From contig WGME01000018.1 of NCBI GenBank assembly GCA_016125225.1, positions 186,001 to 250,000 on the forward strand: a DNA stretch of 64,000 bases, read 5' to 3'. The notes beneath the pieces were generated by a model, which was not told where the DNA came from, ran no database searches, and worked only from the letters and a program-made list of their open reading frames with translations. Numbering within the stretch: position 1 is the stretch's first letter; the number at the start of each line of letters is the position of its first letter. Origin of the DNA: a bacterium. GTDB lineage: Bacteria > Planctomycetota > Planctomycetia > Planctomycetales > Planctomycetaceae. Shown here in pieces: positions 9,910 through 30,196 of the stretch. The position numbers and the translations under genes are program-made.

Positions 9910-11775
9910 ATGCCTGTAGACCCCGTTACTATTTCCTTTTCGAACGAAGCTGCAAAATCCGCTATCAGCATAATCGTAAAAGATCTCTACGGATTAGCCA
10001 AAACGAAGACCGCATCGCTGTACAACCGATTTGCAGCCACATGGAAGATTCAAACTGTCTGCAAAAATCTATCGTCGGTCCGAAAGGTCAAAACGATCTT
10101 TCAGCTAGAAAAAGACGTGGACATCAAGCACTTCTATTACACGTCTCGCATCAGAATTGGTAAGGAGCCAAAGTCGATTTCTTCGCTATCAGACATCCCC
10201 TTTGACGGTAATATCGTAATCGAGGGAACAGTCGGCCAAGGAAAGTCCACGTTCCTTAGATATCTTACTTGGGCCGAAGCGACGAAGGGGAAAGCAATCC
10301 CTCTTTTTATTGAACTCAGAAAGTACGATGCCAAAGAGGACGCTATCAAACTAATACAGTCACAGCTCGTAACATTCGGCCTGCCGACAGACGAAGATGT
10401 TCTTGTTTTTCTCCTCGATTCTGGAAAGATTTGGCTATTTTTAGACGGATTTGACGAAATTGCTGATCGCAACCGATCAAGTGTTGTTACTGCACTCGAG
10501 TCATTAGCAACACGATTTCCTAACACCCGCATGATAATTACATCACGGCCTGATTCAGATATCCAATCGTCTGCGTTTTTCAGAGTACTTGCGTTGTGCC
10601 CTCTACGCCCTGGAGAGTACAAGCAATTGATCCGACGAATGTGCACTAACGCAAGCATTGCAGACCGTTTAATAAACCAAACAGAAACTGCGGACCAATT
10701 GGCCTCAGATGGAAGATCAATAACCGGGCTTTTGAATACGCCGCTAATGGTTGCCTTGCTATTAGTCAAGTTCAACATTGAACAATCTGTACCGGAAAAC
10801 CTCTGCGATTTCTATCGAGAATTATTCATCTTACTCCTCCAACGCCATGACAAATCAAAGGCGGGCTTCAGGCGGGAACGACAATCAAAACTATCCGACG
10901 ACGACATCCAAGCAGTCTTTGATTCACTTTGCTTTCAAATGCGCAAGGACGGACTTTCTGCCATATCGAAGACTCGTCTTCGCCTTGTATTGAAGTCAAT
11001 TTGCGAAGATGAAGATCTGACAGCCGACTCCGCATGTGTTTTATCTGACATCACAAAAATCACCTGCCTGCTGCTCGAAGATGGTGGTGAGTTCCATTTC
11101 GTCCATCGAAGCGTTCTTGAATTCCATGCAGCCAGACACGTTGCCTCGCAACCGGAAGAGCATGCGAGCATATTTTACGACACCGTTCAACCTATATGGC
11201 ATTTGTGGCTGGAAGAAATCAACTTTCTGTCAGAACTGGACCCCTACCGTTTCCATAAATTCTTTGAAATGCCTGACATCGAGAATGTATTGGAGAAACT
11301 AGGCAGTAAGAAACCGCACATTAAGTCTTCAAACGAGCTCCGGTTGTTTACAGGTGATTTAGAAGGTGAACTGAAGATCGCCCCCGATCAGAAATTTACC
11401 CGATGGATTCGCGTCTCTCCACAGTCGACTTGGACGGGGTTCAAAGCATTTGGCCGTAGGTGGCAGAGCCTAGTTGGACCACTTGGTAAGGCGATTTTAA
11501 CGAAGACTATTATCGAAGACGCAAAGAAAAAAACGCAAAGCTGGACTCGTGTTTTTTTGTGGAAACACTCGGCAGATTCTGAACCACCGCTCATACTAAA
11601 TGTATGCGGTCTATTGGATGCTGGGCGTCTTGACTACAAGATCTTCCAATCTCTTGAAAGTGAAGTCGACTGCCTGAGAGAGAGACTAGCAATCCTGAAG
11701 CGACAAGTAAAAACCAAGGAATCAAAAAAGACAAGATTCGATTTCAATCAAAACGGTAATGGTAAGAAACATTAA
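9910..11775 (+). CDS. NACHT-family STAND NTPase, candidate defence protein
   Basis: A 621-residue protein. After an ~95-residue helical N-terminus comes a NACHT NTPase: Walker A GTVGQGKST at about residues 105-113, Walker B with WLFLDGFDEI at about 175-184, and a TSRPD sensor motif near 215. The later FVHRSVLEFHAA stretch near residue 397 is the F-x-H-x-S-x-x-EF-x-AA motif common in bacterial NACHT proteins. No recognisable leucine-rich or TPR repeats follow, and the C-terminus is basic. Bacterial NACHT proteins include antiphage defence proteins; that role here is inferred. Codon use is visibly richer in A/T than in the neighbouring megasynthases, suggesting transfer. A GGAG site lies about 12 bases before the ATG. 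It stands alone between megasynthase 1 and minus-strand genes, with a possible repeat fragment just downstream. Confidence 0.85.
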   Translation: MPVDPVTISFSNEAAKSAISIIVKDLYGLAKTKTASLYNRFAATWKIQTVCKNLSSVRKVKTIFQLEKDVDIKHFYYTSRIRIGKEPKSISSLSDIPFDGNIVIEGTVGQGKSTFLRYLTWAEATKGKAIPLFIELRKYDAKEDAIKLIQSQLVTFGLPTDEDVLVFLLDSGKIWLFLDGFDEIADRNRSSVVTALESLATRFPNTRMIITSRPDSDIQSSAFFRVLALCPLRPGEYKQLIRRMCTNASIADRLINQTETADQLASDGRSITGLLNTPLMVALLLVKFNIEQSVPENLCDFYRELFILLLQRHDKSKAGFRRERQSKLSDDDIQAVFDSLCFQMRKDGLSAISKTRLRLVLKSICEDEDLTADSACVLSDITKITCLLLEDGGEFHFVHRSVLEFHAARHVASQPEEHASIFYDTVQPIWHLWLEEINFLSELDPYRFHKFFEMPDIENVLEKLGSKKPHIKSSNELRLFTGDLEGELKIAPDQKFTRWIRVSPQSTWTGFKAFGRRWQSLVGPLGKAILTKTIIEDAKKKTQSWTRVFLWKHSADSEPPLILNVCGLLDAGRLDYKIFQSLESEVDCLRERLAILKRQVKTKESKKTRFDFNQNGNGKKH

Positions 11776-13250: not shown

Positions 13251-14507
13251 TCAAGTCGCCGTGGCTGCCATCTCGGTGGGCGGCCAGTAACCTTCAAAGC
13301 ACCGATCGATATCGGCATTCGACAGGCCGAACTGTTCGAGTTCGTATTTATGGGCACCGTGCTTGCCCTGCGGGTTGTTCGCCAGCCACTGTTTCATGCC
13401 GGCTTCCATGGCATCGGAATATTCATACCCGAAGCGTTCGTAAATGCCTTTGACCGTGCCGATGGGATCCTTCACGAGGTTATCGAAGACCACATCGGTC
13501 ATGCGATCGCCAAATTTCTCCTTGGCTTTCTTCGAGTTCTCGATGGCAATCGACATCCGCTCCGCGAGTTCGGGGCCCGACTTCTGAATGTCGAGGTGAT
13601 CGGAAAAAATGCCGCGGGTCATGCAGATCAGGCTGCAACAGGACGGCACAACCTTTTTAGGATCGCGATGCGTCTGAATGATGTTCGCTTCAGGGATGGT
13701 TTCCATCAACGGAGCGAGCGTGGCCTGATGGACCGGTGACTTGAGAATCCAGTGCTTCTTCTGCTCACCCGCCTGCAAGAGTTGCAACTGTTTTTTGTAA
13801 TAGTCGTAGACTTCCAACTGCCGTTCGTCGGACATGTTCTTGTAGTAATCGAAGTAGCGCGGCAGCACCGCATCGAGCAGGAACATCAAACTGACGAACG
13901 AGTTGTTCATCAGCCAACCACATTCCTCAGGGGAATCGGGCTCAATCGCATGGACCTGCTTCAGATTTGGTGCCAGACGGTTCATGGCCTTGACAGCGAA
14001 GTTGGCTTTCCAGCGACGGTAGCTATCATTCTGCTTCCGCTCTTCTTTCGGGGAGAGGGCCGGATAGAGCGTTTCCCACACCATGAGCGGGCGGGAATTC
14101 GGGTCCTGGCTGAGGAGGTTATACAGTAACGTGGTCCCGGTCCGGGGCATCCCGACGACATACAGGGGCCGATTCAGTGGCTGTGTCAGGAATTCGGGGT
14201 GTCGCTTCCAGGCGTCTTCCACCAGCAAGCGATTGGAAGCATGCTGCACGAGCAAACGATTCATGCAGTAATGCCCGAAAGGATGCAGCTTGGCAGAGTT
14301 TTCAAATTCCTCACAGAGGATTTGCAGAGGTTCCAGAAAATCGTCGCGGCCGTAATCTTTGAGGCCCGTAGCACTGCGGCCTGCGGCCAGCACCCGATCC
14401 ACAGTGATAGTCCGTTCGCCACCCAGGTTACGGACAACCCCTCCGATCCCATTGAACAGTTTGACTCCCACGGGGCGGAAAGGTTGATTCAGCGTGTAGT
14501 TCGTCAT
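13251..14507 (-). CDS. PAPS-dependent sulfotransferase family protein
   Basis: A 418-residue protein of the Sulfotransfer_3 type. The 5'-phosphosulfate loop is visible as VVGMPRTGTT at about residues 115-125. The 3'-phosphate motif, with THRDP then VVPS, lies at about 275-290. It has no signal peptide and is probably cytoplasmic. Family members move sulfate from PAPS to hydroxyl groups of lipids, sugars or small molecules. It lies divergently from megasynthase 2 across a 1.1-kb gap and between two parts of the lipid locus, so it may sulfate the product; this is an inference from position only. It ends 67 bases before the start of the epimerase gene on the same strand, so the two may be cotranscribed. 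Confidence 0.88.
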   Translation of the reverse strand: MTNYTLNQPFRPVGVKLFNGIGGVVRNLGGERTITVDRVLAAGRSATGLKDYGRDDFLEPLQILCEEFENSAKLHPFGHYCMNRLLVQHASNRLLVEDAWKRHPEFLTQPLNRPLYVVGMPRTGTTLLYNLLSQDPNSRPLMVWETLYPALSPKEERKQNDSYRRWKANFAVKAMNRLAPNLKQVHAIEPDSPEECGWLMNNSFVSLMFLLDAVLPRYFDYYKNMSDERQLEVYDYYKKQLQLLQAGEQKKHWILKSPVHQATLAPLMETIPEANIIQTHRDPKKVVPSCCSLICMTRGIFSDHLDIQKSGPELAERMSIAIENSKKAKEKFGDRMTDVVFDNLVKDPIGTVKGIYERFGYEYSDAMEAGMKQWLANNPQGKHGAHKYELEQFGLSNADIDRCFEGYWPPTEMAATAT

Positions 14508-15584: not shown

Positions 15585-18500
15585 ATGGATGCCAGCCCCG
15601 AGTTCCAATACCGCGGTGACCTCGACATTGCCATCGTGGGGATGTCCTGCATGTTCCCCAAATCGCCCAATTTGCGGGCGTATTGGGAAAGCATCATGAA
15701 TCGTCTCGATTGCATTCAGGAAGTTCCTGAGACTCGCTGGAAGATCTCTGACTACTTTGATGACGATCGTTTCGCTCGGGACAAAGTTTATTCCAAATGG
15801 GGCGGTTTTCTCGAATCCATTCGCTTTGATGCGATGAAATGGAAGATCCCCCCGGCCAGCCTGCTCAGTATCGACCCCATTCAACTTCTGTCGCTGGAAG
15901 TCGCGGCTCAGGCGTTTGAAGACGCCGGATTTGATAAACGCCCCTTCCCGAAAGAACGCACGGGTGTGCTCTTCGCTTGTGCCGGTTCGCATGACGTGGG
16001 TTCGGACTATGCCTTCCGCACCATGCTGGGCCATTATCTGCCGCGGGTGAAAGACCTGACCCCGGAAATGCGGCAGCACATCACCGACGAAATCAACGCC
16101 ACCCTGCCCGAGTGGACGGAAGACTCGTTTCCCGGGTTCTTGATGAACGTGATCGCAGGCCGTATTGCGAACCGTTTCGACTTGGGTGGGCCGAACTATG
16201 TGGTCGATGCGGCGTGTGCTGCCTCGCTGGCGGCTTTGCATGCCGGGATCGCACAGCTTCGGTTAAAGACCGTCGATGCCATGTTGATCGGGGGGGCCGA
16301 TGGCACTAACAATCCATTCTGTTATATGAGCTTTGCCAAGACGCATGCGCTTTCGCCCCAAGGCCGGTCGCGACCGTTCGATAACGGAGCGGACGGCATC
16401 GCCCTCGGTGAAGGTATCGCCGCCATCATGGTGCGTCGGTTGGAAGATGCCGAACGCGATGGCGACAAGATTTACTGCGTGATCAAAGGGATCGGTGCCT
16501 CGAGCGATGGTCGCAATCGCAGCATGACGGCCCCATTCCCTCCTGGCCAAATTATGGCCATGCAGCGGGCCTACGAGGATGCCGATGTGCCAGCCGCCAG
16601 TGTTTCGCTGGTGGAAGCCCACGGGACCGGCACTGCCGTCGGGGACAGCACGGAAATTACCTCGCTGCACACCCTGTTCTCGCAAGCTACCAAAGACGAA
16701 CAGTACGCCGCGGTCGGTTCCGTCAAATCGATGATTGGCCACACCAAGACCTGTGCCGGGTTGGCCAGTCTGGTGAAGACCGCGTTGGCGATCAAGCAGA
16801 AAGTCTTGCCGCCGACCATCAACGTCGAAAAACCGAACGAGATGGTCGACTTCCGGCACAGCCCGTTCTACATCAACACCGAAACGCGTCCCTGGTTTGA
16901 AGAAATCGGCGAGCATCCCCGTCGTGCGGGTGTGAGTGCTTTCGGATTCGGTGGCACGAACTTCCACGTCGTGATGGAAGAGTACACCAAACCGGGGCCG
17001 TCACAATTCGATCTCGACTTCTCGCCCCGAGCCGCAGAAATCTGTATCTGGCAGCGATCCAGCAAAACTGAATTGACTCAATCGCTGAAAGATCTGCAGG
17101 CTCAGCTCGAAGGCCTGCCTACCAAAAATCTCGCGCAGTTGGCGAACTCGCTCCGGGAAGATGAACGGCAACGTCCCGCCGGAAACTCCGCCGTGCGGCT
17201 CGCGATTGTCGCGACAACCGTGGAGGACTTCCGGACGAAGTTGCAGAAAACTCTGGATCAGTTGGGCAACAAATCGTCGCTCAACGATCCCACCGGAATC
17301 TACTATTCCGAAGCGGCTGCGATTACTCAGGATAAGGTCGCTTTTCTCTATCCCGGCCAAGGCTCGCAAGCGGTCAACATGCTGCGTGATACGGCTGTGG
17401 TGAGCCGCTGGGCTCAAGGCCTCTTTACCCAGGCCAACCGTGTGCTCGGTGAGTTCTTCCCGATCGCCATCACACGCATGATCTATCCGCCTCCGGTCTT
17501 CTCGAACGACGAAGATGTCGAACGAAAAGAACGCCTCAACGACACCAAAGTCGCACAGCCCGCCTTGGGTGTGGCGGAAGTCTTCGGTACCGAATTGCTC
17601 AAGCGGTTCGGCATCGCTCCCGGCGGTGTAGCGGGACACAGCTATGGCGAATACGTGGCCTTGTATGCCGCTGGTTCGCTCAACCTGGATGACTTGTTAA
17701 CCGTCTCAGCCCACCGGGGACAAGTGGCCGCGGCAGCGAGCCAGACTTGCCCGGGTGCCATGGCGGCCGTCATGAGCAACGCGGCCGATACTCAGAAATT
17801 CCTGGACGACAATCAACTCAAGGTCTATCTGGCGAACCTGAATGGTCCTGACCAGACCATCATCGCCGGAACGGAGGAGTTAATCGTCCACACCGTCGCG
17901 CAAATGAATGCCAAGGGCATGCGGGCAAAACGGATTCCTGTGACGGCGGCGTTCCACACGCCTTGCCTGGCAACGGCCGCTCAACCGCTGAGCGTCGTCC
18001 TCAAGAACACGCGGCTTGAATCACCAACACTGCCGGTTTACAGCAACACGCTCGGTGCGGCGTATCCCACAGATCCCACGGAGATTCGGCAGCTTCTGCA
18101 ACGCCATATCGTCGAGCCGGTCCGGTTCGAAGAAGAAATGCGACAGATGCGGGCGGATGGTTACGAAGTGTTCGTGGAAGTGGGTCCGGGACGCGTGCTA
18201 TCGGGCCTGCTGGGTCGGATTTTTGCAGGGAATACCCCGACGGTCTTGTCTCTGGAAGCGAATGGTCGCGATGGCGTGAGCCAATTGGCCCATGTGCTGG
18301 CTCAACTGGCCGTCCTGGGTCTGCCGGTGAATTTGGACCCCTGGTTCGAAAATCGTGGCCTGAACGCCACTTCGGTCACGGAGTTCGCCCAGCAGGTGCA
18401 AGACACAGCCCAGCCGAAAAAGACCGACTGGATCCTGTCGGTCCAAGGTGCGGTCCCGGTTACTCCGCTGCCCAAACGGAAAGGTTTGCCGGGCGATGGG

Positions 18501-20081
18501 CTCCGAGCAAAGTTTTCCGGCAAATCCGGCACAAACGGTACCACGCCTGCCGCAATCCCGGAAACCGCTCCTCCCGCGCTGAACGGCTCCTCCGTGAAAG
18601 CCGATACGATTGGACGGACACCAGCCCCGGCAACAAAGCCGGAATCGACGAGCACGGTCACACAGCCGACCCCGGCTGCGAAGCCGATTTCTGTCGGTTC
18701 CAACCACGTTGCCGATGCCGTCCGGCCTGCTCCGGCACCGCTTCCCGCCACCGCTCGATTCCGCTTGCCTGTTGCAGCGGAAATGAACAATGGTGCCAGC
18801 AACGGGCATGCAGTGAATGGCCACAACAATGGTACTCATACCAATGAGCACCCGGCGGCCAAGAACGGGACATCGCTGAACGGAAAGCATACTAAGCAAG
18901 CTGGGCAACCTGCCTCGGCCCCAGCCGCTGCAACAAATAACGCTCCTGTGATTATTCCGGGAAGTTCGGTGCCTTTGGCACCTTGTTTGCCGGTAGTCAC
19001 CGACTGGAATCAGGTGTCGCTGGGTTCAACCCCGGCTCAGCCGACTCTTACAACTTCAAGCCCCTTGCAACACCCCATGAGGTTTGCCGTGTCGACGCAA
19101 CAGACTTCTCCCGATCAAGGTTCCAGCATGAATCCCGCGTCCGCTCAGTTACTCCTGCAATCGCAGGCCCTCATGATGCAGATGCTCGACTTGCAAAAGT
19201 GGCAGCAACAGGTCGCTTTGAAGTTCGTCGATACGCATCAAATGCTGGTGCACGGGCTGTCTGGACAAACGCTGGAACTGCCCGCTGCCGCTCCGACACC
19301 AATGATTGCCACCGCCCTGCCGACACCGGCTCCGGTTCAGCCGATGGCAGTCGCTGCTCCCCAACCGATGGCCGCTCCGGCTCCGCAACCTGTGGCTGCA
19401 CCGCAGCCAGTTGCTGCTCCAGCAGCTGTGGCCGCGCCTCAACCGGTAGCTGCCCCGGCCGCAGTCGCCAAGCCTGCCCCGGTCGCCTTAGCACCGGCGG
19501 TGAAAGCAGCTCCGGTCCCCGTGGGTGCCCGTCCCGCGGCTGTCCCCACCAACCGCATCGCTCAGGTCCCTGTGGCTCCGGTTCGCCCGGCCCCGACGAA
19601 CGGTGCCCCGGCGGCGATTTCGACGGCGGCTCCGGCTCCGGTCGCGAAAGCTCCGGAAGCGGGTTCCACCGATCACATTCCCACACCCGAATCGTTCCGC
19701 GTGGACCTGCTCAATGCGGTCAGCGAACGAACGGGCTATCCCATCGAGATGCTCGATCTCGAACTCGCGATGGAAGCTGGCCTGGGGATCGACTCGATCA
19801 AGACGGTTGAAATCTTCAGCAACCTGAAGGCGTACCATCCGTACTTCCAGCAGGATGATCAGGACGAAGAAGAAGCCCTGAAGGAATTCACCAAGTTGAA
19901 GACCCTCGGTGACATCATCAGTGCTTACGAACTCCGCTACCAGGCTGTCACCTCGGGGGGAAAGGCCCCAAAGGCGGCCGCCAAGGAAGCCGCCCCCGGT
20001 GAGGCCGTCGAACGCTACTCGCTGGAAGCGGTTGAGTCCTCTGCGAATGGGCAAAAAAAAACTTCCCACGTGAGCAACTGA
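15585..20081 (+). CDS. Megasynthase 2, zero-frame part: KS-AT-ACP
   Basis: From ATG 15585, chosen because AGGA lies about ten bases upstream and the KS begins soon after; a TTG at 15531 in frame has no such support. The zero frame encodes 1498 residues. KS spans about 10-460, with Cys211 in DAACAAS, His346 in EAHGTGT and an IGHTK histidine. AT spans about 580-900, with Ser686 in GHSYGE and AAFHTP. A very long Ala/Pro/Asn-rich linker runs to about 1365. One ACP follows, with Ser1404 in GIDSIKT. The frame then ends at TGA 20079-20081, just after a run of nine A. Open sequence continues in the -1 frame with a complete KR, so the real product is probably one KS-AT-ACP-KR protein of about 2005 residues (see the next entry). 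It is the first gene of a plus-strand run that continues to the exporter genes. Confidence 0.92.
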   Translation: MDASPEFQYRGDLDIAIVGMSCMFPKSPNLRAYWESIMNRLDCIQEVPETRWKISDYFDDDRFARDKVYSKWGGFLESIRFDAMKWKIPPASLLSIDPIQLLSLEVAAQAFEDAGFDKRPFPKERTGVLFACAGSHDVGSDYAFRTMLGHYLPRVKDLTPEMRQHITDEINATLPEWTEDSFPGFLMNVIAGRIANRFDLGGPNYVVDAACAASLAALHAGIAQLRLKTVDAMLIGGADGTNNPFCYMSFAKTHALSPQGRSRPFDNGADGIALGEGIAAIMVRRLEDAERDGDKIYCVIKGIGASSDGRNRSMTAPFPPGQIMAMQRAYEDADVPAASVSLVEAHGTGTAVGDSTEITSLHTLFSQATKDEQYAAVGSVKSMIGHTKTCAGLASLVKTALAIKQKVLPPTINVEKPNEMVDFRHSPFYINTETRPWFEEIGEHPRRAGVSAFGFGGTNFHVVMEEYTKPGPSQFDLDFSPRAAEICIWQRSSKTELTQSLKDLQAQLEGLPTKNLAQLANSLREDERQRPAGNSAVRLAIVATTVEDFRTKLQKTLDQLGNKSSLNDPTGIYYSEAAAITQDKVAFLYPGQGSQAVNMLRDTAVVSRWAQGLFTQANRVLGEFFPIAITRMIYPPPVFSNDEDVERKERLNDTKVAQPALGVAEVFGTELLKRFGIAPGGVAGHSYGEYVALYAAGSLNLDDLLTVSAHRGQVAAAASQTCPGAMAAVMSNAADTQKFLDDNQLKVYLANLNGPDQTIIAGTEELIVHTVAQMNAKGMRAKRIPVTAAFHTPCLATAAQPLSVVLKNTRLESPTLPVYSNTLGAAYPTDPTEIRQLLQRHIVEPVRFEEEMRQMRADGYEVFVEVGPGRVLSGLLGRIFAGNTPTVLSLEANGRDGVSQLAHVLAQLAVLGLPVNLDPWFENRGLNATSVTEFAQQVQDTAQPKKTDWILSVQGAVPVTPLPKRKGLPGDGLRAKFSGKSGTNGTTPAAIPETAPPALNGSSVKADTIGRTPAPATKPESTSTVTQPTPAAKPISVGSNHVADAVRPAPAPLPATARFRLPVAAEMNNGASNGHAVNGHNNGTHTNEHPAAKNGTSLNGKHTKQAGQPASAPAAATNNAPVIIPGSSVPLAPCLPVVTDWNQVSLGSTPAQPTLTTSSPLQHPMRFAVSTQQTSPDQGSSMNPASAQLLLQSQALMMQMLDLQKWQQQVALKFVDTHQMLVHGLSGQTLELPAAAPTPMIATALPTPAPVQPMAVAAPQPMAAPAPQPVAAPQPVAAPAAVAAPQPVAAPAAVAKPAPVALAPAVKAAPVPVGARPAAVPTNRIAQVPVAPVRPAPTNGAPAAISTAAPAPVAKAPEAGSTDHIPTPESFRVDLLNAVSERTGYPIEMLDLELAMEAGLGIDSIKTVEIFSNLKAYHPYFQQDDQDEEEALKEFTKLKTLGDIISAYELRYQAVTSGGKAPKAAAKEAAPGEAVERYSLEAVESSANGQKKTSHVSN

Positions 20082-21601
20082 TTCTGCTGCTTGGTGAAGC
20101 TGCAGAACTGACGTCAGCCGTAGCGGCTGGCCTCACGCAGGAAGGTTATCGGGTTCGACAAATCCTGCCGGGGAATACCACCCGGCAGGTCTCCAGCAGC
20201 ACATTCGAAGTCGACTTCGGTCAGCCAGAAGCCCTGCAGCAACTGCGGCCGCTCCTGGTTGGCTCTCAGCAAGAACCGATTGGTGCTGTCCTCAATTTTC
20301 TCGGCATCAGCTCTGGCTTCTCTGCCCCCGGCTGCGTTAGCCCGGAAGCGGCTCAGCAAGTCACGCTCTGGTCCTTCAATTTCCTGAAGGAGTATGCCGC
20401 CGACCTCACCAATGCCGCCAAATCGGGGGGCGGCTGGGTGATGAATCTCACCGGCCTCGACGGTCAGTTCGGACTGTCGGGTTCAGGGGGACGGATGGCC
20501 TTGACCTCCGCGGGATTGTGCGGGCTCTTCAAATCCTTCCGCCAGGAATACCAGACCGTCCACACGAAAACGGTCGATCTCGATCTCACGGCCCCCAGCG
20601 CGATCCTGGCCGGACGCCTCATCGAAGAGCTGGCCCTGGATGATCGCTCTTATGAAGTGGGACTGACCACCACCGGACGCTGGACGCTCCGCCTGAACAA
20701 CACCACGCCGCATGCGTCGCAGCTGGGGGCCTTCCCCTTCGACAAAGAATCGGTCGTGCTGATCACCGGCGGGGCCTATGGCATCACCTGCGATATTGCC
20801 CAGCGGATCGCTGATTTGTCCAAAGGCAAACTCGTCCTTGTCGGTCGTTCCCCCCTGCCCGATGAAGAGCCGGAAGAAACTCGCTCGCTCGATGCGGCCA
20901 AGCTGCGGATGCACCTGATTGCGGAGCGAAAGGCGTCTGGTCAGCCGTTAGTTCCTGCCCAGATTGAGCAGAATCTCAAACGGATGCTGAAAGATCGTCA
21001 AATCCTCGCGAATTTGCAGGCGTTAGAAGCGACTGGCGCCACGATTGAGTATCATTCGCTCGACGTACGCGATGAAGAAGCGTTCGGCGGATTGATTGAC
21101 GATGTTTACGCCCGGTTTGGCCGACTGGACGGAGTCATTCACGGGGCCGGTGTGATTGAAGACAAGCTGATGCGCGACAAAACGCCGCAGTCCTATGCCA
21201 ACGTCTTCTCAACCAAGGTCGATAGCGCCATGGTTCTGGCCAAGCGTCTGAAACCGGAACAATTGAAGTTCCTGGTCTTCTTTTCGTCGGTGTCTGGCCG
21301 CTTTGGGAATAACGGGCAGTGCGACTACAGCTCCGCCAATGAATTCCTCAACAAGCTGGCCGACGATCTCGACCGCAAGTGGCCGGGTCGGGTCGTGGCG
21401 ATCAACTGGGGAGCCTGGGATGCGGGCATGGTGTCCGACGAACTCCGTCGGATTTATGCCTCCCGCCAGATCTATCTCATTCCCGTGCCGGAAGGGGTGC
21501 GGTTCCTCGAACAGGAACTGCGCTTAACCGGCCATCGGGAGCCGGAAGTCACAGTGGCCTGCAGCGTGCCTCAGTTGGCACGCATGGTGGCTGGCGAATA
21601 A
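20036..21601 (+). CDS. Megasynthase 2, -1 frame part: ketoreductase domain
   Basis: The -1 frame is open from 20036 to the stop at 21601. It reads PREQLILLLGEAAEL straight after the A run, then a KR structural half, and then the catalytic half with a TGGAYGI nucleotide loop near 20760, FFSS, and the catalytic Tyr in CDYSSANE near 21325. There is no ATG, GTG or TTG in this frame between 20036 and GTG 20438. That GTG falls inside the KR fold, so separate translation would give a truncated domain. The same domain order occurs uninterrupted in megasynthase 1. I read this as the C-terminal part of one protein reached by a -1 shift, or as a disrupted gene. KR reduces 3-ketoacyl-ACP with NADPH. Megasynthase 3 starts 62 bases after the stop. 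Confidence 0.85.
   Translation, partial: VLCEWAKKNFPREQLILLLGEAAELTSAVAAGLTQEGYRVRQILPGNTTRQVSSSTFEVDFGQPEALQQLRPLLVGSQQEPIGAVLNFLGISSGFSAPGCVSPEAAQQVTLWSFNFLKEYAADLTNAAKSGGGWVMNLTGLDGQFGLSGSGGRMALTSAGLCGLFKSFRQEYQTVHTKTVDLDLTAPSAILAGRLIEELALDDRSYEVGLTTTGRWTLRLNNTTPHASQLGAFPFDKESVVLITGGAYGITCDIAQRIADLSKGKLVLVGRSPLPDEEPEETRSLDAAKLRMHLIAERKASGQPLVPAQIEQNLKRMLKDRQILANLQALEATGATIEYHSLDVRDEEAFGGLIDDVYARFGRLDGVIHGAGVIEDKLMRDKTPQSYANVFSTKVDSAMVLAKRLKPEQLKFLVFFSSVSGRFGNNGQCDYSSANEFLNKLADDLDRKWPGRVVAINWGAWDAGMVSDELRRIYASRQIYLIPVPEGVRFLEQELRLTGHREPEVTVACSVPQLARMVAGE
20053..20061 (+). other. A9 slippage site joining the two frames of megasynthase 2
   Basis: Nine consecutive A sit inside the only 43-base window (20036-20078) where both the zero frame and the -1 frame are open. 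A one-base backward slip here changes CAA-AAA-AAA-ACT into AAC-TTC and fuses the ACP part to the KR part without gap. A stem-loop follows at 20082-20107: TTCTGC pairs with GCAGAA and GCTT with AAGC, with a GGTG loop and one T-T mismatch. It starts about 20 bases after the run, farther than usual for a ribosomal frameshift stimulator. Ribosomal slippage, RNA polymerase slippage, a true mutation or a sequencing error are all possible. Confidence 0.75.
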
Positions 21602-21663: not shown

Positions 21664-24600
21664 ATGAACAACCGGGATCTTGCCATCGTCGGGATGGGGT
21701 GCGCCTTTCCTCAAGCGCGGAATGTGCGTGAGTATTGGCAGAATGTCATCAACGGGGTCGACAGTGTTGAAACGCCCCCAGCTCCCCGATTTCAGCATGC
21801 ACGCGACTTCACGTTCATTGAAGAAGCCATGGCTGTTCATAGGGGCGGTTTCCTGCCGAAAGATCTGTCGATCGATCCCCAACACTTCGGAATTCTGCCC
21901 AACGCCATCAAGCATGGGGAAGCCGACCAGTTTCTGATGCTGCTCGTCACCGACGCTGCCTTGAAAGACGCAGGGTTTGCCGCGAATGATCCGCGGCGGA
22001 AGCGTACCGATGTGTTGATCGGGCGCGGCGCGTACCCCGGTGCCAAACACTGCGAATTGTGGCTGCGGGGCGAGATCTACGACACGGCATTGGAACTCAT
22101 CGACCGCAAGTTTCCGGAGATGATGCCGGGCAGCAAACGGAGCGAAGTCGAGGCCTGGCTGCGTCAAACCTTGCCGCCGAATGAAGTCGATTCATTGGCC
22201 ACGGCGATTCCCAACATTGTAGCCAGTCGTGTCGCAAACCGACTCGACTTGGGTGGTTTGGCGGAAACCGTCGACGGAGCCTGTGCGTCCAGCCTGCTGG
22301 CTCTGGAACATGCGGGTGACCGGCTGCGTTCCGGGCGATCGGACGTGGCCATCGTCGGCGGCGTTTTTCTCGCTCAGGTCCGTCCGTTTCTGCTGGTTTT
22401 CAATCGCCTGCATGCGGTTTCGAAATCAGGAGTGATTCGCCCGATGGACCGCCGGGCCGATGGTCTCGTCATCGGTGAGGGCGCGGGAGCGATTGTGCTC
22501 AAGCGACTTGAAGATGCCGTCGCTGATGGCGATCGCATTTATGCCATTGTGAAGGGAACAGGGTCCGCCAGCGATGGCCGTCATCTCGATGTGCTCGCCC
22601 CGGCCTGGCAAGGTCAGGTTGAGGCCTGTCACCGTGCCTATGCCGATGCGAAGATCGATCCCGCCCAAATCGGCTATCTCGAACTGCATGGCACGGGCAC
22701 CGTCGCGGGGGATACGGCGGAAATCACCACCATCCGCGAGATCTTCGGCACCTCGAAACATCCTCCCACCTCGCGTGCCATGGGGTCGGTCAAATCGCAG
22801 ATTGGCCATCTGATGCCCGCTGCGGGGATGGCGGCTCTCATTCGAACGGCGTTGTCACTGTCAAACAAGCTGCTGCCTCCCAGCCTGCACTGCGAAGAAC
22901 CCCGCGAAGAATTGCTGGAATCGCCGTTCTATCTCAACCCGTATACCCGGCCGTGGGTGCAGAATGAAAGCCGTGGCCCGCGCCATGCTGCCATCAACGC
23001 GTTCGGCTTCGGCGGGATCAACGTCCACGCGATTCTGGAAGAAGTACAGCCCACGAAGATTGCTGAAAAGACTCAGGTGTCAGTCCCGCGACCCCTGGTC
23101 CCCGATCTCAAGCGGCCATCGGAACTCGCCCTGTTCTCGGCGGCGTCAACCAAAGAACTGGTATCGCAGATTCAGCAACTGCTGACGTTCATCGAGAACG
23201 ATCAACAGAATGTCACAGCGACCGATCTTTCCAAGTCGCTGGTGGCGACTCTGCAGTTCAACCAACCCGTCAAGCTGGGCGTGGTGTATGAATCGATCGC
23301 AGAACTGGTCAAGAAGTTGAGCGTGGTGCTCACCGAGCTCGCGAAGCCCACGCCGAAATTCATCGACGACACCATCTACTATGCGACCGACGTCGCACAG
23401 CATCACGGCAAGATTGGTTTCATTTTCCCCGGCATGGGTTTCCCGGGGCTGATCGGCAACTATCCCGACCATCTGATGGAACTCTGCCTGCACTATCCCG
23501 AATTGCGAGCCGAGTTCGATTTCTTCGAAGAACGCGATCGTAATCCCGATGATGATGTCCCGACGAGTTCGGTCTTCGTGCCACCGGCGTCGCTGCCCGA
23601 AGAGTACCGCACCAAGCTGAAGAACCGCCTGGGGCCACCCAAGGACACCGACTTCCTGGAAGATCAAAAGCCGGAAGAACGGTACCTCTCGGCGATGGGG
23701 GTCACGCTCGCCAACTGGATCAGTTGGACCCTGCTGAAGCAGTTCGAGATTCCGGTCGATGCCGCCGCCGGTCAAAGCCAGGGGGAAATGGCCGCCATTT
23801 GTGCGGCCGGCATGGGCGATTTCCGGGAAACGGCCCCGGCCTACTGGCGTGTGCTCAACATCACACCGAAATACGAAAACACCGGCCGGCTCGCATTCAC
23901 CTGGGCGACGGAAGAGCAGGTTGCCCCGTTAGTCGCACAGAATCCGAACACGTACATCGCCATGTATGTCGGCCCCAGCGCGATCATTCTGGGGGGAGAC
24001 CGCGAAGGTCTGGTGCGCATTACCGACGCTCTGAAAAAAGAACGGGTGCTGGCTTCGATTCTGCCCTATCCGGCGATCCATACGCCGATGCTGAGTCACC
24101 TGCGGAAAGAACTCGACGAAGCCCTTGAAGATGAGCCGTTCGCGATCAAGCCGGCCACAATGACTTTATATTCGTCGATCACCACGGAACCCTATCCGTT
24201 GGATGAAGACGGCGTCCGACACACACTGGCCTTGAATCTCGATCATCCGTTGCGCGTCTGGCAAACCATTCTGCGCATGTACCAGGATGGCATTCGCATC
24301 TTCGTCCAGGTAGGCGGCGGTCACATGGCGGCCCGCGTGCAGGACTTCACCAGCGATGCGGAACCCGCTGTTTCCGTGGCCCTGGATGTCGACAACCGCA
24401 ATCCGATCACGCAATTGAATCACCTGCTGGCCACATTGTTCGTCACCGGCGTGCCGTTCAATCCACAACCGCTGTTCAACAACCGCATCGCCACCGTGCT
24501 TGACCTGACTCAACCACGGGGCGAAGCCGCGAAGCCGAAAATGCTGTTACCATTGCGGATCGAATGGACTCCGCTGACTCACCCGTCGGTGCCTCCTAAG

Positions 24601-26520
24601 CCGATCACCGAAACAGCTCCGGAAGCAAAGACAACCGCCGAAGCCACCCCGGTAACAAAGAGCGTAGAACCGCCTTCAAAGCCGGAGTTGGCCGCTCCCA
24701 TGGAAAGCACACCGACAGCTGTCGCCCCAACCAAAACCATCGAAGACTGCAACGATTGCAGCCATGGCTTCTTCGAAGGGGTCGACTTCGAGCAGAATTC
24801 CGCCGTCGTGGAATTTGAAGGCTCATCGTTGCCGGTGCTGATCAATGGCCGCGTGACTCGTTATGTCGAAGGCCAGGAACTGTTGATCGAGCGCGTCCTC
24901 GATGCGGAGCAGGACCGATACATCTACGATCACCTGTTCATCACTTGCCCGCCCAAGGCACCGCGGCACTGCCTGCCTATCGTGCCCATGACCATGAGCC
25001 TTGAGTTCATCGCCGAGACCGCGGCCCTGCTTTGCCCTGGTCTCGGGGTCATTGGTTACGAGAACGTGAAAGCCATGCGCTGGATCGGTCTGGAAGACCG
25101 TCTGCAAGTGCTGCTGTTTCTGGACGCGAAGGTGTTCTCGGTTGATGAAGAGACCGGCGAAACCCGGGTCGATGTGACGATCTCATTCCAAGATAAGCGG
25201 GCCTTTGCCGGTCGCGTGGTGCTCGGCACGGCCTATACCCAAAACCTGCAGATGGAATGGCCCGATCTATCCGACGCCCCCGCCTGGCCCGTGGAAATTA
25301 CGGAGGCCTATGAAGGCCGTCGCATGTTCCATGGCCCATCATTCCATGTGATGACCCATCTCGACGCCTTCTCGAATCCAGTCGCGACGGGCAAACTGCG
25401 GGTCTTGCCGAAGAATGAATTGTTCCAGGGTCTCCCCGAGCCCAACCTGCTCGTCGATCCCTGCCTGCTCGACGGCATCGGTCAATTCGTCGGTTTGTGG
25501 TGCCAGATGCACGATTGGCACATTCTGCCCATCGGCGTGGAAAAGGTCGAGTTGTATGGCCCCACGCCCCCGGTCGGCACCGACTGCCCCATCAAAATGA
25601 TGGTGACCACGTTCGATGTCGACACGAAGCAACTGAAAGCGAACTTCGAAATTGAAGACGGTTCCGGCAATGTCTGGATGCGTTTCTACGGCTGGGGTGA
25701 CTGGATTTTCCGCTGGACGCCCGAGTTCCTCGATTTCAACCGCTACCCCACGCAGTTCCCACTATCCAAGGAAATTGCCCTGCCAGGGTTGCCCGAAGGA
25801 GCCCTCGCGGTCTTTATGGAAGAACGGCACTTCGTCGGTGTCGATCCCCTCTGGATCGCGCGGGCGTCGCTGACCAATGCAGAAATCGCCGAATTACGCC
25901 AATATGAATCCGCCAAGCAGATGCGGAAGTATCTGCTGTCGCGCATGGCCCTGAAAGATGCGATCCGCCTGTGGCGCAGCCGCGTGATGAGTGCCGGCTT
26001 GACCCATCCGGCGGAGTATCACATCGATCACGACGAACTCGGTAAGCCCTATGTGGTGGGAATCACCGATGAATTTGTCCCCTGCATCACGGTGACGCGC
26101 AAAGATAATGTGGCGGTCGCGATTGCCTCGTGGCAGCCGCTGGGAGTTGATGCCGAACCCGCGGATCGTGATACCCGTTCGATTCTGGACTCGTTTGCGA
26201 CTCCGCAGGAAATCGAACTGGTGGACCAACTGGCAGCCAGCCAGCCCGAAGCCGGCTGGGAAACCCGATTCTGGTGTGCCAAAGAAGCGGCAGGCAAAGC
26301 CCGCGGCACAGGCCTGAACGGATATCCCAAGCGGTTGCAGGTGAAGGAAGCCGACGAATCGGGTCGCATGGTCGTCCAGGACACGGAAACTTCACACCAT
26401 TTTGAAATTCAAACAACACAATGGGACGCAGTGCTCATCGCGACAGCCGTGCCCTTGGCGGAACTGAACTCCGCTGCGGAAGGGACCGTTGGTGCGGGTC
26501 ACGACGGTCATGCCGGTTAG
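21664..26520 (+). CDS. Megasynthase 3: KS-AT-DH with C-terminal phosphopantetheinyl transferase
   Basis: A 1618-residue synthase. KS spans about 4-460, with Cys207 in DGACASS, His342 in LHGTGT and a histidine in IGHLM, so the triad is intact. AT spans about 580-920, with nucleophile Ser705 in GQSQGE, where Gln replaces the usual His; AIHTPM supplies the second catalytic His. A Pro/Lys-rich linker follows, then a hotdog dehydratase region at about 1075-1350, with His1090 and Asp1270 in a DxxxQ motif. From about 1400 the C-terminus is a 4'-phosphopantetheinyl transferase: GVDAE with Asp1496, then the WCAKEA motif (Lys1540, Glu1541). This domain would activate the four ACPs of megasynthases 1 and 2. 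Overall it recalls PfaC plus PfaE. No enoyl reductase domain is present. The HlyD gene starts 190 bases downstream. Confidence 0.92.
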   Translation: MNNRDLAIVGMGCAFPQARNVREYWQNVINGVDSVETPPAPRFQHARDFTFIEEAMAVHRGGFLPKDLSIDPQHFGILPNAIKHGEADQFLMLLVTDAALKDAGFAANDPRRKRTDVLIGRGAYPGAKHCELWLRGEIYDTALELIDRKFPEMMPGSKRSEVEAWLRQTLPPNEVDSLATAIPNIVASRVANRLDLGGLAETVDGACASSLLALEHAGDRLRSGRSDVAIVGGVFLAQVRPFLLVFNRLHAVSKSGVIRPMDRRADGLVIGEGAGAIVLKRLEDAVADGDRIYAIVKGTGSASDGRHLDVLAPAWQGQVEACHRAYADAKIDPAQIGYLELHGTGTVAGDTAEITTIREIFGTSKHPPTSRAMGSVKSQIGHLMPAAGMAALIRTALSLSNKLLPPSLHCEEPREELLESPFYLNPYTRPWVQNESRGPRHAAINAFGFGGINVHAILEEVQPTKIAEKTQVSVPRPLVPDLKRPSELALFSAASTKELVSQIQQLLTFIENDQQNVTATDLSKSLVATLQFNQPVKLGVVYESIAELVKKLSVVLTELAKPTPKFIDDTIYYATDVAQHHGKIGFIFPGMGFPGLIGNYPDHLMELCLHYPELRAEFDFFEERDRNPDDDVPTSSVFVPPASLPEEYRTKLKNRLGPPKDTDFLEDQKPEERYLSAMGVTLANWISWTLLKQFEIPVDAAAGQSQGEMAAICAAGMGDFRETAPAYWRVLNITPKYENTGRLAFTWATEEQVAPLVAQNPNTYIAMYVGPSAIILGGDREGLVRITDALKKERVLASILPYPAIHTPMLSHLRKELDEALEDEPFAIKPATMTLYSSITTEPYPLDEDGVRHTLALNLDHPLRVWQTILRMYQDGIRIFVQVGGGHMAARVQDFTSDAEPAVSVALDVDNRNPITQLNHLLATLFVTGVPFNPQPLFNNRIATVLDLTQPRGEAAKPKMLLPLRIEWTPLTHPSVPPKPITETAPEAKTTAEATPVTKSVEPPSKPELAAPMESTPTAVAPTKTIEDCNDCSHGFFEGVDFEQNSAVVEFEGSSLPVLINGRVTRYVEGQELLIERVLDAEQDRYIYDHLFITCPPKAPRHCLPIVPMTMSLEFIAETAALLCPGLGVIGYENVKAMRWIGLEDRLQVLLFLDAKVFSVDEETGETRVDVTISFQDKRAFAGRVVLGTAYTQNLQMEWPDLSDAPAWPVEITEAYEGRRMFHGPSFHVMTHLDAFSNPVATGKLRVLPKNELFQGLPEPNLLVDPCLLDGIGQFVGLWCQMHDWHILPIGVEKVELYGPTPPVGTDCPIKMMVTTFDVDTKQLKANFEIEDGSGNVWMRFYGWGDWIFRWTPEFLDFNRYPTQFPLSKEIALPGLPEGALAVFMEERHFVGVDPLWIARASLTNAEIAELRQYESAKQMRKYLLSRMALKDAIRLWRSRVMSAGLTHPAEYHIDHDELGKPYVVGITDEFVPCITVTRKDNVAVAIASWQPLGVDAEPADRDTRSILDSFATPQEIELVDQLAASQPEAGWETRFWCAKEAAGKARGTGLNGYPKRLQVKEADESGRMVVQDTETSHHFEIQTTQWDAVLIATAVPLAELNSAAEGTVGAGHDGHAG

Positions 26521-26710: not shown

Positions 26711-28078
26711 ATGGCCGATACGTCTTCCCCCAACACAGGCTCACCGGCGATTTCCGCCCTGAGGCTGCCAGACACTGAACGCGTCACCAGCGGTGGCTCG
26801 TCGCGTCTGGTGCGGTTCATAGTCTGGTCGGGAATTTTAGTGGTGGTGGTGGTGGGTGTCGGTGCCTACCGCCGCAATCCCCCGTGGCTGCAGGAAATTC
26901 GGGCTTCGGTTCTGGGGAATAGTGTCGAATTCGATACTGCCACGGTCGCCGCCAAGGGTCGCGAAGAAGTCGCCCTGGAAGTCTCCGGCTTCGTCGTTCC
27001 CTACCGAGTGCTCAATGTCTCGCCCCGCATCCCCGGCCTCATCACCAAGCTGAATTTTGAAGTCGGGCAGAAGGTCAACAAAGGCGATGTCCTCGCCCAG
27101 CTCGATGACTCCAGCTATCAGTATGATCTGCAACAGGCCGAAGCAGCCGTGCAGGCCTCGCACAGCCGCCTGGAAGAAGCAACCAACGGGGCTCAACCCG
27201 AGGAAATCAACCAGGCCCGCATCGCGGTCAATGTTGCGAAATCAAAGCTCGAACTCGTTTCCAACGAACTCAAGCGAGCCGAAATGCTCGGCGATTCAAC
27301 AACCGACGCCGAAATGGATCAACTGACTTCTGCCAAAAGCGATGCCGAAGCTCAGGTCGCTTCATTACAGGACAAGCTGAAACTGATCGAACAAGGCCTG
27401 CGACCGGAACGGATGAAGGCCATCGAAGCGGAAGTCAAGCAGACGGAAGCTCTCGTCAACAAAGCCAAATACTTCCTGGAAAATACAAAGATCCTCGCGC
27501 CGCTCAATGGCACGGTGCTGGAGAAAAATGCGGAAGTCGGCGAAATTCTGCGTCCGGAAGTGCTCTCGGTCAGCCTGTGCAAACTGGCCGACATGAGCGT
27601 GATGGAAGTCGAAATCGATGTCCAGGAACGCGAACTGTTCAAGATCGAGATCGGCCGTGAGTGCGTCATCATTCCCGATGCCTATCAGGACAAAAGCTAT
27701 GCGGGCAAAATTGACCGCCTGCAACCGATGGTGAATCGTCAACGAGGTGTCGTGCGGGTCACCATCCGCATTGAGAACCCCGATGAATACCTGTTGCCGG
27801 AAATGAATGTCCGCGTGAAGATTCTGAATCCACCGGAAACTGAATCCTCGGATGAGACATTATGGATTCCTGAGGCGGCGGTGAAAAAGGAAGGCGACAA
27901 AGCGTATGTGTTCATGGTCGTGAACGACGCCGCCAAGGAGACAGATATCGAACTGGGTGCCAAGGAAGGTCGCCGGGTGGAAGTGAAATCGGGACTGGCC
28001 GCGGGAGACGTGGTCGTCATTCCGGGTGATAAACGCGTGGTGGAAGGCCAACAGATCCGCACCAAAGCGGGTAAGTAG
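26711..28078 (+). CDS. HlyD-type membrane fusion (periplasmic adaptor) protein, DevB-like
   Basis: A 455-residue adaptor. One membrane segment of hydrophobic residues (Val/Ile-rich) lies at about 37-57, near the N-terminus. It is followed by a lipoyl-like half (VSPRIPGLI, then VGQKVNKGDVLAQLDD), a long helical hairpin of about 130 residues rich in Glu, Ala and Lys, the second lipoyl half (NTKILAPLNGTV), and a beta-barrel region. Adaptors of this kind link an inner-membrane ABC exporter to the outer envelope. The ATG has GGAGA about 10 bases upstream. Directly downstream are the ATPase and two permeases, making a tripartite exporter. The arrangement matches cyanobacterial DevBCA, which exports heterocyst glycolipids, and MacAB. 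Export of the megasynthase product is inferred from position. Confidence 0.9.
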   Translation: MADTSSPNTGSPAISALRLPDTERVTSGGSSRLVRFIVWSGILVVVVVGVGAYRRNPPWLQEIRASVLGNSVEFDTATVAAKGREEVALEVSGFVVPYRVLNVSPRIPGLITKLNFEVGQKVNKGDVLAQLDDSSYQYDLQQAEAAVQASHSRLEEATNGAQPEEINQARIAVNVAKSKLELVSNELKRAEMLGDSTTDAEMDQLTSAKSDAEAQVASLQDKLKLIEQGLRPERMKAIEAEVKQTEALVNKAKYFLENTKILAPLNGTVLEKNAEVGEILRPEVLSVSLCKLADMSVMEVEIDVQERELFKIEIGRECVIIPDAYQDKSYAGKIDRLQPMVNRQRGVVRVTIRIENPDEYLLPEMNVRVKILNPPETESSDETLWIPEAAVKKEGDKAYVFMVVNDAAKETDIELGAKEGRRVEVKSGLAAGDVVVIPGDKRVVEGQQIRTKAGK

Positions 28079-28130
28079 TCTGGTCGACTTCGGTTCGTCT
28101 CCTGATTTCCCCGCGCAGAATGGCCGACCC

Positions 28131-28877
28131 ATGTCCGATGCGATTGTGACCGTTGATAACTGCACGAAAACCTATTCCCGCGGAGCGGAACGGGTGGAAG
28201 TGCTGAAAGGGGTTTCGCTGCAGATTCTGCGTGGCGAATTCGTCGCCCTGATTGGTCCTTCGGGCTCTGGCAAGACCACACTGCTGAACCTGATTGCGGG
28301 ACTGGATCAACCGACCACCGGTCGGGTGATTGTCGCCGAGCGCGACATCAGCCGGATGGATGAGTCACAACTGGCCCGCTGGCGGACGACGGCGATCGGC
28401 TTCGTGTTCCAGTTCTACCATCTCATTCCGGTGTTGACGGCCTATGAGAATGTGGAACTCCCCCTTCTGCTGCTCAACATGACGGCCAAACGTCGCCGGG
28501 AACAGGTGCTGACGGTGCTCCATCTCGTGGGATTGCAGCACCGGTTAACCCACCGGCCCGGCCAGCTTTCGGGTGGAGAACAGCAACGCGTGGGGATTGC
28601 CCGGGCTCTCGTCACCGATCCCGCACTCGTGGTCGCCGATGAACCGACGGGGGACCTCGATGGTCGTAAGAAGGAAGAAATTCTCGACCTGCTCGAGAAC
28701 CTGCAACGTGGTTTGAACAAGACCATTCTGATGGTGACGCACGACCATGTCGCGGCCGCGCGGGCTCACCGTCTCACCCGCATCAGCGATGGCCTGCTGC
28801 TCGAAGAACGGGCCGACACGAAAGAAGAAGCCCTGGCGTTGGCCTTTCCAGATGCCAAGATCCGGGGCAACGATTGA
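28131..28877 (+). CDS. ABC transporter ATP-binding protein, LolD/MacB/DevA type
   Basis: The start at ATG 28131 (MSDAIVTV) is preferred over an in-frame upstream ATG at 28026, which overlaps the HlyD gene and would add 35 non-conserved residues. The product is 248 residues, the usual length for this family. Visible motifs are Walker A GPSGSGKTT at about 43-51, the Q loop in VFQFYHL, the signature LSGGEQQR, Walker B with LVVADEPTGDLD, and the switch histidine in THDH. The phrase 'FYHLIPVLTAYENVELPLLL' region is typical of the o228/LolD subfamily that pairs with FtsX-fold permeases. It powers the exporter formed with the flanking adaptor and permeases, in the cytoplasm at the inner membrane. 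Confidence 0.94.
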   Translation: MSDAIVTVDNCTKTYSRGAERVEVLKGVSLQILRGEFVALIGPSGSGKTTLLNLIAGLDQPTTGRVIVAERDISRMDESQLARWRTTAIGFVFQFYHLIPVLTAYENVELPLLLLNMTAKRRREQVLTVLHLVGLQHRLTHRPGQLSGGEQQRVGIARALVTDPALVVADEPTGDLDGRKKEEILDLLENLQRGLNKTILMVTHDHVAAARAHRLTRISDGLLLEERADTKEEALALAFPDAKIRGND

Positions 28878-28928
28878 TCGACAGCATCGTCTGATTTTCC
28901 TGAACCTGCACGCCTGATACCACAATTC

Positions 28929-30104
28929 ATGCTCTTCAAATTCGCCATCCTTGTCGTCAAAAGCCTCGGCCGGAATAAAGTCCGGACCGGGTTGACGAGT
29001 CTGGGCGTGATGGTGCTGGTGGCGATTTTTTCGGTGGTCACCAACGTGACCTCCGTGGTGAAAAGCAAAGTCAACGCCCAAGGCGAGCAAACGCGGCTCA
29101 TCGTGTCAGAGCGTTGGACCATGCCCAGCCGTGTGCCGTTGCGTTATATCCCGGAAATCGCGGGACAGGACGGTGTCGCTGACTGGACCACCATGAACTT
29201 TCTCATGGGCTTTCTCGACGAATCGCGGCGGCGCGATCGGCAGGCCATCGCCATTGCCACACGTCCCGATAACCTGCGGGAAATGCACGAAGGGGCTCGC
29301 GGCATCGACGATGATTCTTACGATGCCTTCCTGACACGCAAAGACGCGGCGCTCGTGGGTCCGGGCCTGCTCAAGACGATGAATTATCAGGTGGGCGACA
29401 GTTTCACCCTGCTCGCGGCCCGGTTTCCACCCATCGATATTGAATTCACCATCGTGGGCGTCTTGCCACCGGGAGAAATGTCGAACGGTTTTTTCTGTCG
29501 CCATGATTACTACATGGAAGCCACCGACGACCGCGATGCCGTGAATTGTATTCTGGTGGAAATTGAAGGGGCCGAGCGAGCCAAGGAACTGGCGGCAGGA
29601 TTAACGCTGGATTACGAAAACCGTCAGCCTTCGCTGAAGGTCGAAACCGAATCGGCCGGTGTGGCTCGTTTCGCGGCCCGTAGTCAAGCTGTGCTGCAGA
29701 TTATCGACGGTGTCGTCGCGATTCTGCTGATCGACATGATCATCATCCTGTCGAACAGCATCAGCATTTCGGTTCGCGAACGGCGTGTTGAAATGGCGGT
29801 GCTTAAAGTGCTCGGTTTCCAACCGTTGCACATCACCTTGATGATTATTGCCGAGGCGATGCTGGTGGGTGGTGTCGCGGGGTTGCTCGGAACGGGGATG
29901 GTCTGTGGACTGTCTCAATTGACCATCCACGAAGTGATTCCTGTGATGGCCTGGAACAAGTTTCTGCTGCAGTTTCCCGTGCCCTGGTCGGCCGCGATCT
30001 GGGGCATGCTGATTGGTGCGGGCGTGGGACTGACCGGCAGCGTCATACCCGCATCGTCCGCAAAAAGTGTTAAAGTGTCCGACGTGTTTTCGAGAATTGC
30101 GTGA
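28929..30104 (+). CDS. FtsX/MacB-type ABC permease 1
   Basis: A 391-residue permease. An N-terminal membrane segment lies at about 14-40 (LGRNKVRTGLTSLGVMVL context), followed by a periplasmic domain of about 220 residues (MacB_PCD type). Three more hydrophobic segments lie at about 265-285, 310-335 and 355-380, with the cytoplasmic signature VRERRVEMAVLKVLGF between the first two. The topology and length match DevC and MacB-fold permeases, which transmit ATP hydrolysis mechanically rather than forming a classical channel. It is 52 bases downstream of the ATPase gene and 92 bases upstream of a second, distinct permease. It probably forms a heterodimer with that one. Confidence 0.9.
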   Translation: MLFKFAILVVKSLGRNKVRTGLTSLGVMVLVAIFSVVTNVTSVVKSKVNAQGEQTRLIVSERWTMPSRVPLRYIPEIAGQDGVADWTTMNFLMGFLDESRRRDRQAIAIATRPDNLREMHEGARGIDDDSYDAFLTRKDAALVGPGLLKTMNYQVGDSFTLLAARFPPIDIEFTIVGVLPPGEMSNGFFCRHDYYMEATDDRDAVNCILVEIEGAERAKELAAGLTLDYENRQPSLKVETESAGVARFAARSQAVLQIIDGVVAILLIDMIIILSNSISISVRERRVEMAVLKVLGFQPLHITLMIIAEAMLVGGVAGLLGTGMVCGLSQLTIHEVIPVMAWNKFLLQFPVPWSAAIWGMLIGAGVGLTGSVIPASSAKSVKVSDVFSRIA

Positions 30105-30196
30105 GAGAAAGAGGTTTCAGGCATCACGTTCGCAGCTACCGGTGAAATCGGCATTCCCTCACACCGTAGCCCTGACTCCTGAGACCTTTCCCAACC

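Follow-up and report, generated by a model that had tools for sequence, protein, structure and literature searches.

The window considered here is a 64,000-nucleotide stretch of a Planctomycetaceae genome (GCA_016125225.1, contig WGME01000018.1, positions 186,001 to 250,000), in which the gene for megasynthase 2, an iterative polyketide synthase (PKS) or fatty-acid-type megasynthase, is split between its ACP and ketoreductase (KR) domains at a run of nine A (A9). The run is proposed as a programmed slippage site, and sequence comparison makes it very probable that slippage there yields both KS-AT-ACP and KS-AT-ACP-KR from one gene. When no slip occurs, translation would stop at 20079 and give KS-AT-ACP; when RNA polymerase adds one A, so that A9 becomes A10 in the mRNA, or alternatively when the ribosome moves back one base, reading would pass into the KR frame and give KS-AT-ACP-KR. 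We infer the occurrence and frequency of slippage, the set ratio of the two products and the use of both forms, which may lie in partial chain reduction or in a complex that combines the two and contains fewer KR than KS/ACP domains. The elements of the split gene are as follows.

15585-20081, plus strand: zero-frame open reading frame (ORF) of megasynthase 2, KS-AT-ACP short form, 1498 aa from ATG 15585.
20053-20061, plus strand: putative A9 slippage site, zero frame CAA AAA AAA ACT, with an in-phase A_AAA_AAA heptamer.
20079-20081, plus strand: zero-frame TGA stop, 17 nt 3' of A9, after the non-conserved tail TSHVSN.
20060-21601, plus strand: -1 frame from the A run, encoding a pseudo-KR half and the ketoreductase, 513 aa, Pfam KR E 3.9e-38.

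The zero frame at the site reads GGG CAA AAA AAA ACT TCC CAC GTG AGC AAC TGA. An earlier sequence-only reading had reported the A9 run at 20053-20061, the stop at 20079-20081 and a -1 frame open over 20036-21601, all of which were re-found in the sequence; its lengths of about 1498 and 2005 residues for the truncated form and the fusion also hold when counted from ATG 15585, the fused KS-AT-ACP-KR being 2005 aa long. The upstream part matches Pfam KS (E 1.9e-64) and AT (E 1.3e-41), while the ACP was recognized by eye from the motif LGIDSIK, the Pfam PP-binding match (E 0.009) lying below the cut-off. The domain order is thus the KS, AT, ACP, KR order of a PfaA-type megasynthase, with KS, AT and KR well above the Pfam cut-off and ACP weak.

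Homologues were sought with the KR as query, both in relatives and in the class, which was sampled with one genome per species, so that "all members" refers to all those found in the sampled class. A9 or A10 together with a -1 split is present in 9/9 members of the clade, which come from five families and separate assemblies and have KR identities of 39-73% to the window. Where close relatives might have shown a single frame lacking the A run, the opposite was found. The zero frame of the nine genes ends 9-31 nt past the run, and the -1 frame stays open for about 510 codons. In a tree of 60 KRs, the nine split genes form one clade with a support of 100/100, their nearest relatives being uninterrupted genes that lack an A run; wider scans found no clade member beyond the nine. 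Among the fused planctomycete homologues that passed the motif screen, runs at the joint do not exceed 6, except in L028/L118 of genome G004; a slip run is therefore not a feature of KS-AT-ACP-KR genes in general. The slippage interpretation given by the sequence-only reading is supported by these comparisons.

The shifted frame is itself conserved. In the nine-gene clade, conservation begins 1-3 codons past the run (FPxxHLVLVxGE), and the first ATG, GTG or TTG of the -1 frame in the window is, as had been noted earlier, GTG 20438, which lies 125 codons 3' of the run. These 125 start-free codons (20063-20437) are under purifying selection, with dS 2.08, dN 0.243 and dN/dS of about 0.12 between the window and its same-genus relative. 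The zero frame also encodes, 5' of the run, the N-terminal part of the KR region (V.RY.L.A..AP), and in uninterrupted homologues both KR-region segments lie in one frame; the long product would therefore be a continuous KS-AT-ACP-KR protein.

Runs of this length are rare. A9 occurs once in the window, while shuffled sequences hold 0.36 on average and at least one in 21/100 cases; in the 6.35 Mb genome, 11 matches correspond to ten distinct runs of at least nine A or T. By arithmetic from this genome count, the expected number of A9 runs on one strand of a given 43-nt overlap is about 4e-5. The nine clade PKS genes have 55-73% G+C and an AAA share of Lys codons of 0.12-0.48; their next-longest A run is 4-7, and no other exceeds 7. 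The chance of two Lys codons both being AAA in all nine genes is 6e-11, which, with the AAA share, rules out chance codon usage as the origin of the A run.

A slip site is also found at the same ACP/KR joint in the PfaA-type polyunsaturated fatty acid (PUFA) synthases of Bacteroidota, where 17/17 tree members carry it. Aureispira and its relatives have A9/A10 at the joint and are split, a pattern repeated by L041; four Saprospiraceae-type genes have A AAA AAG and then a stop, either immediately or after one further codon, and carry GGAGGT 9-10 nt 5' of the site (top 0.2-0.6% of gene positions), as expected of a Shine-Dalgarno (SD) stimulator; and Persicobacter is split at G GGA AAG. Flammeovirga and five others are fused, with A10 in frame and a -1 stop nearby as in dnaX, this stop lying 3-6 nt further along in Flammeovirga and L115-L117 and 32-53 nt further along in L113/L114. 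In the Bacteroidota part of the tree, split genes are interspersed with fused ones while the slip site is kept throughout, and slippage itself therefore seems to be the kept trait. One KR tree, together with the lack of the site in sampled intermediate groups, indicates that the Bacteroidota site arose separately from the planctomycete one. A distant uninterrupted planctomycete gene of the KS-AT-ACP-KR type (L118, G004:C115, run at 6236) has A10 in frame and, two codons further, a TGA in the -1 frame, and is possibly a third origin.

Besides the PKS run, three of the genome's ten runs of at least nine sit at frame-switch points, namely those in dnaX, in a VWA-domain gene and in an ABC-GNAT gene. 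In dnaX (L099, G000:C26, 35752-35760), A9 lies in frame past domain III; addition of one A gives AAG TAG directly, and a -1 shift likewise leads to an immediate TAG; a short gamma form of the product could thus be made by slippage at A9. The VWA-domain gene, outside the window (L097/L119, G000:C12, 43886-43894), is split at A9 and needs a +1 shift, while nine examined relatives in the family have A9/A10 at a -1 switch, and several other families have a single frame. A +1 shift at this run is possible by polymerase slippage and impossible by -1 ribosomal slippage, and a miscounted homopolymer may explain it. The ABC-GNAT gene (L095/L131, G000:C5, 51123-51131, minus strand) has A9 at a -1 switch between its ABC-ATPase part and GNAT-like part; at a like switch, three relatives have A9 and a fourth A8, and a fused one has A10 in frame. 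A broader proposal, possible and tentative, is that two phyla tune the ratio of KR-bearing to KR-less products by slippage at the ACP/KR joint and that Planctomycetaceae share A9 recoding across four or more unrelated genes (PKS, VWA, ABC-GNAT and dnaX).

Either RNA polymerase or the ribosome may slip at these sites. At the planctomycete PKS sites, RNA polymerase slippage is judged somewhat likelier than ribosomal -1 slippage, which may be a rival or may contribute. A run of 9 has been published as the length at which bacterial polymerase slips efficiently (PMC5009743, PMC1088944). The shortest planctomycete PKS site has 9 A, so all the planctomycete PKS runs fit this published length. Both features expected of a Thermus dnaX-type site are found, namely a run of at least nine A or T (A9 in the window, A9/A10 in 9/9 clade members) and an early stop in one frame combined with a conserved open other frame.

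The strongest alternative, which is possible and somewhat doubtful, is programmed -1 ribosomal frameshifting on A_AAA_AAA, by which identical products would be made. Several observations weigh for it and against the preferred reading. The in-phase A_AAA_AAA heptamer, the expected ribosomal signal, is present at all planctomycete PKS sites and indeed at every A9/A10 site, and each of the 18 PKS/Pfa split sites tabulated shows a -1 shift; 5/9 clade members have a fairly strong SD-like stretch upstream (top 1.7-6.1% of positions), which favours the ribosome; the floor in run length may partly reflect conserved lysines; and the Persicobacter site lacks any A run. In Bacteroidota, the sites of the A AAA AAG and G GGA AAG types are too short for polymerase slippage, and ribosomal frameshifting appears more likely there. 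A further reservation concerns the two products themselves, since the fusion may be the only product that matters. Against the ribosome, the planctomycete PKS sites all have 9 A or more, though 7 would be enough; the A9 of the VWA gene in the same genome needs +1, if its homopolymer is not miscounted; and the window lacks an SD-like site about 10 nt upstream, 59% of gene positions being equally strong.

Nor is there a conserved structure downstream, and in the window no stem-loop lies close to the slip site. The sequence-only reading had pointed to a stem-loop following the run.

20082-20107, plus strand: stem-loop common to the same-genus relative only, unsupported as a stimulator.

This element does fold, with -12.4 kcal/mol for 26 nt, and starts 20 nt 3' of the run; the folding z downstream of the run is -0.82 over 50 nt and -2.21 over 80 nt. 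Its role as a conserved element or stimulator did not stand: only the same-genus relative has a match, the rest of the clade being without one, and an 8-sequence alignment folds to 3 pairs, which rules out a conserved stimulator.

Less likely is that slippage merely rescues the gene after an indel in the A run, the short form being useless. A complete KS-AT-ACP-KR enzyme, including the KR segment encoded 5' of the run, exists only as the long form, and poly(A) rescue of disrupted genes has been reported in other systems (PMC5009743). However, a mere indel would be easily lost across such divergence, and the site persists in the tree through changes between split and fused genes; the fused Bacteroidota genes keep in-frame A10 and a -1 stop, so that slippage there would make the short form, and in the tssM precedent both forms are required (PMC4256274). 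Very improbable is a KR made as a separate protein from a coupled or internal start in the -1 frame, which the sequence-only reading had likewise considered unlikely. Split Bacteroidota genes are described as pfaA1/pfaA2 (PMC3098273, PMC4882568), and L034 has an ATG 4 codons past the site; yet the first start in the -1 frame is non-conserved, ranging by species across both phyla from 4 to 125 codons past the site, and this variability argues against a separate KR gene, as do the selected start-free stretch in the window and the KR segment encoded before the run. Sequencing error or a pseudogene has a negligible probability, since the same split recurs in every clade member found, identical in nine species with separate assemblies, an intact operon and purifying selection, and error, which had been named as the main alternative given that homopolymers are prone to it, is therefore excluded as a general explanation.

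The split gene belongs to an operon whose order is kept in the clade, with KS-AT-ACP / KR followed by KS-AT-DH-PPTase and mostly then by HlyD/FtsX exporters; a sulfotransferase is present in some members. In the window, the genes downstream are as follows.

21664-26520, plus strand: megasynthase 3, KS-AT-DH-PPTase, the next operon gene, syntenic across the whole clade.
26711-31348, plus strand: genes for HlyD and two MacB/FtsX exporters, which belong to the cluster and are largely conserved in the clade.

The sulfotransferase gene (13251-14507, minus strand) adjoins the PKS operon, and two other clade members have homologues next to the cluster; the product may therefore be sulfated. Megasynthase 1 (3181-9774) is uninterrupted, as the sequence-only reading had stated, with the domains KS-AT-ACPx3-KR-DH; its three near-identical ACP repeats suggest recent duplication or homogenisation. 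A NACHT-domain NTPase gene (621 aa, 9910-11775) lies between the two PKS genes.

If programmed slippage at the ACP/KR joint is confirmed, the "split" KR genes of arachidonic acid (ARA)-type PUFA synthases are probably read as fusions, cloning pfaA-type genes as separate ORFs may yield the wrong enzyme set, and a homopolymer can set the domain ratios of a megasynthase; the A9 runs at other genes point to a wider habit of A9 recoding in Planctomycetes. It has been reported that A. marina pfaA in E. coli gives very low ARA (PMC5067506). Searches of open-access literature found no report that links slippage or frameshifting to a polyketide, PUFA or fatty-acid megasynthase, and a word search of the searched parts of PMC3098273 and PMC4882568 finds no mention of frameshifting.

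A known system with a similar domain layout is the type D pfa cluster of Aureispira and Psychroflexus, in which, according to Shulse and Allen (PMC3098273) and a later review (PMC4882568), pfaA1 [KS-AT-ACP] and pfaA2 [KR] are split or separate genes; PMC3098273 also describes a fused pfaBC [KS-CLF-AT-DH2] and tandem ACPs. The likeness lies in KS-AT-ACPn and KR being in two frames, with A9/A10 at that joint in Aureispira spp. The window cluster differs in having one ACP motif, no fused pfaBC and an adjoining KS-AT-DH-PPTase gene, and its assignment as a type D pfa cluster was rejected for these reasons.

Slippage is already known for dnaX, insertion sequence (IS) elements and tssM. In Thermus thermophilus, dnaX carries A9 and is subject to RNA polymerase slippage, while E. 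coli dnaX carries A AAA AAG and is subject to ribosomal slippage (PMC5009743). As in dnaX, the slip site considered here stands at a domain boundary and would give a short and a long form, and both site types and both orientations have counterparts among the genes described here; dnaX differs in that its short form is the slippage product, both in T. thermophilus and in E. coli, whereas in the window it is the long form that would depend on slippage. The tssM genes of Citrobacter rodentium and Yersinia pseudotuberculosis undergo transcriptional frameshifting at a poly-A run, which produces the long form in one of these species but the short form in the other; C. rodentium needs both forms (PMC4256274). 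The dnaX and tssM cases thus indicate that such short and long pairs can both be needed (PMC5009743, PMC4256274). The tssM genes resemble the present case in having a poly-A run at which slippage yields the long or short form depending on the species; the difference is that the tssM site is described as uncommon among tssM genes and restores +1, whereas the PKS sites need -1, are kept across five families and have a second origin.

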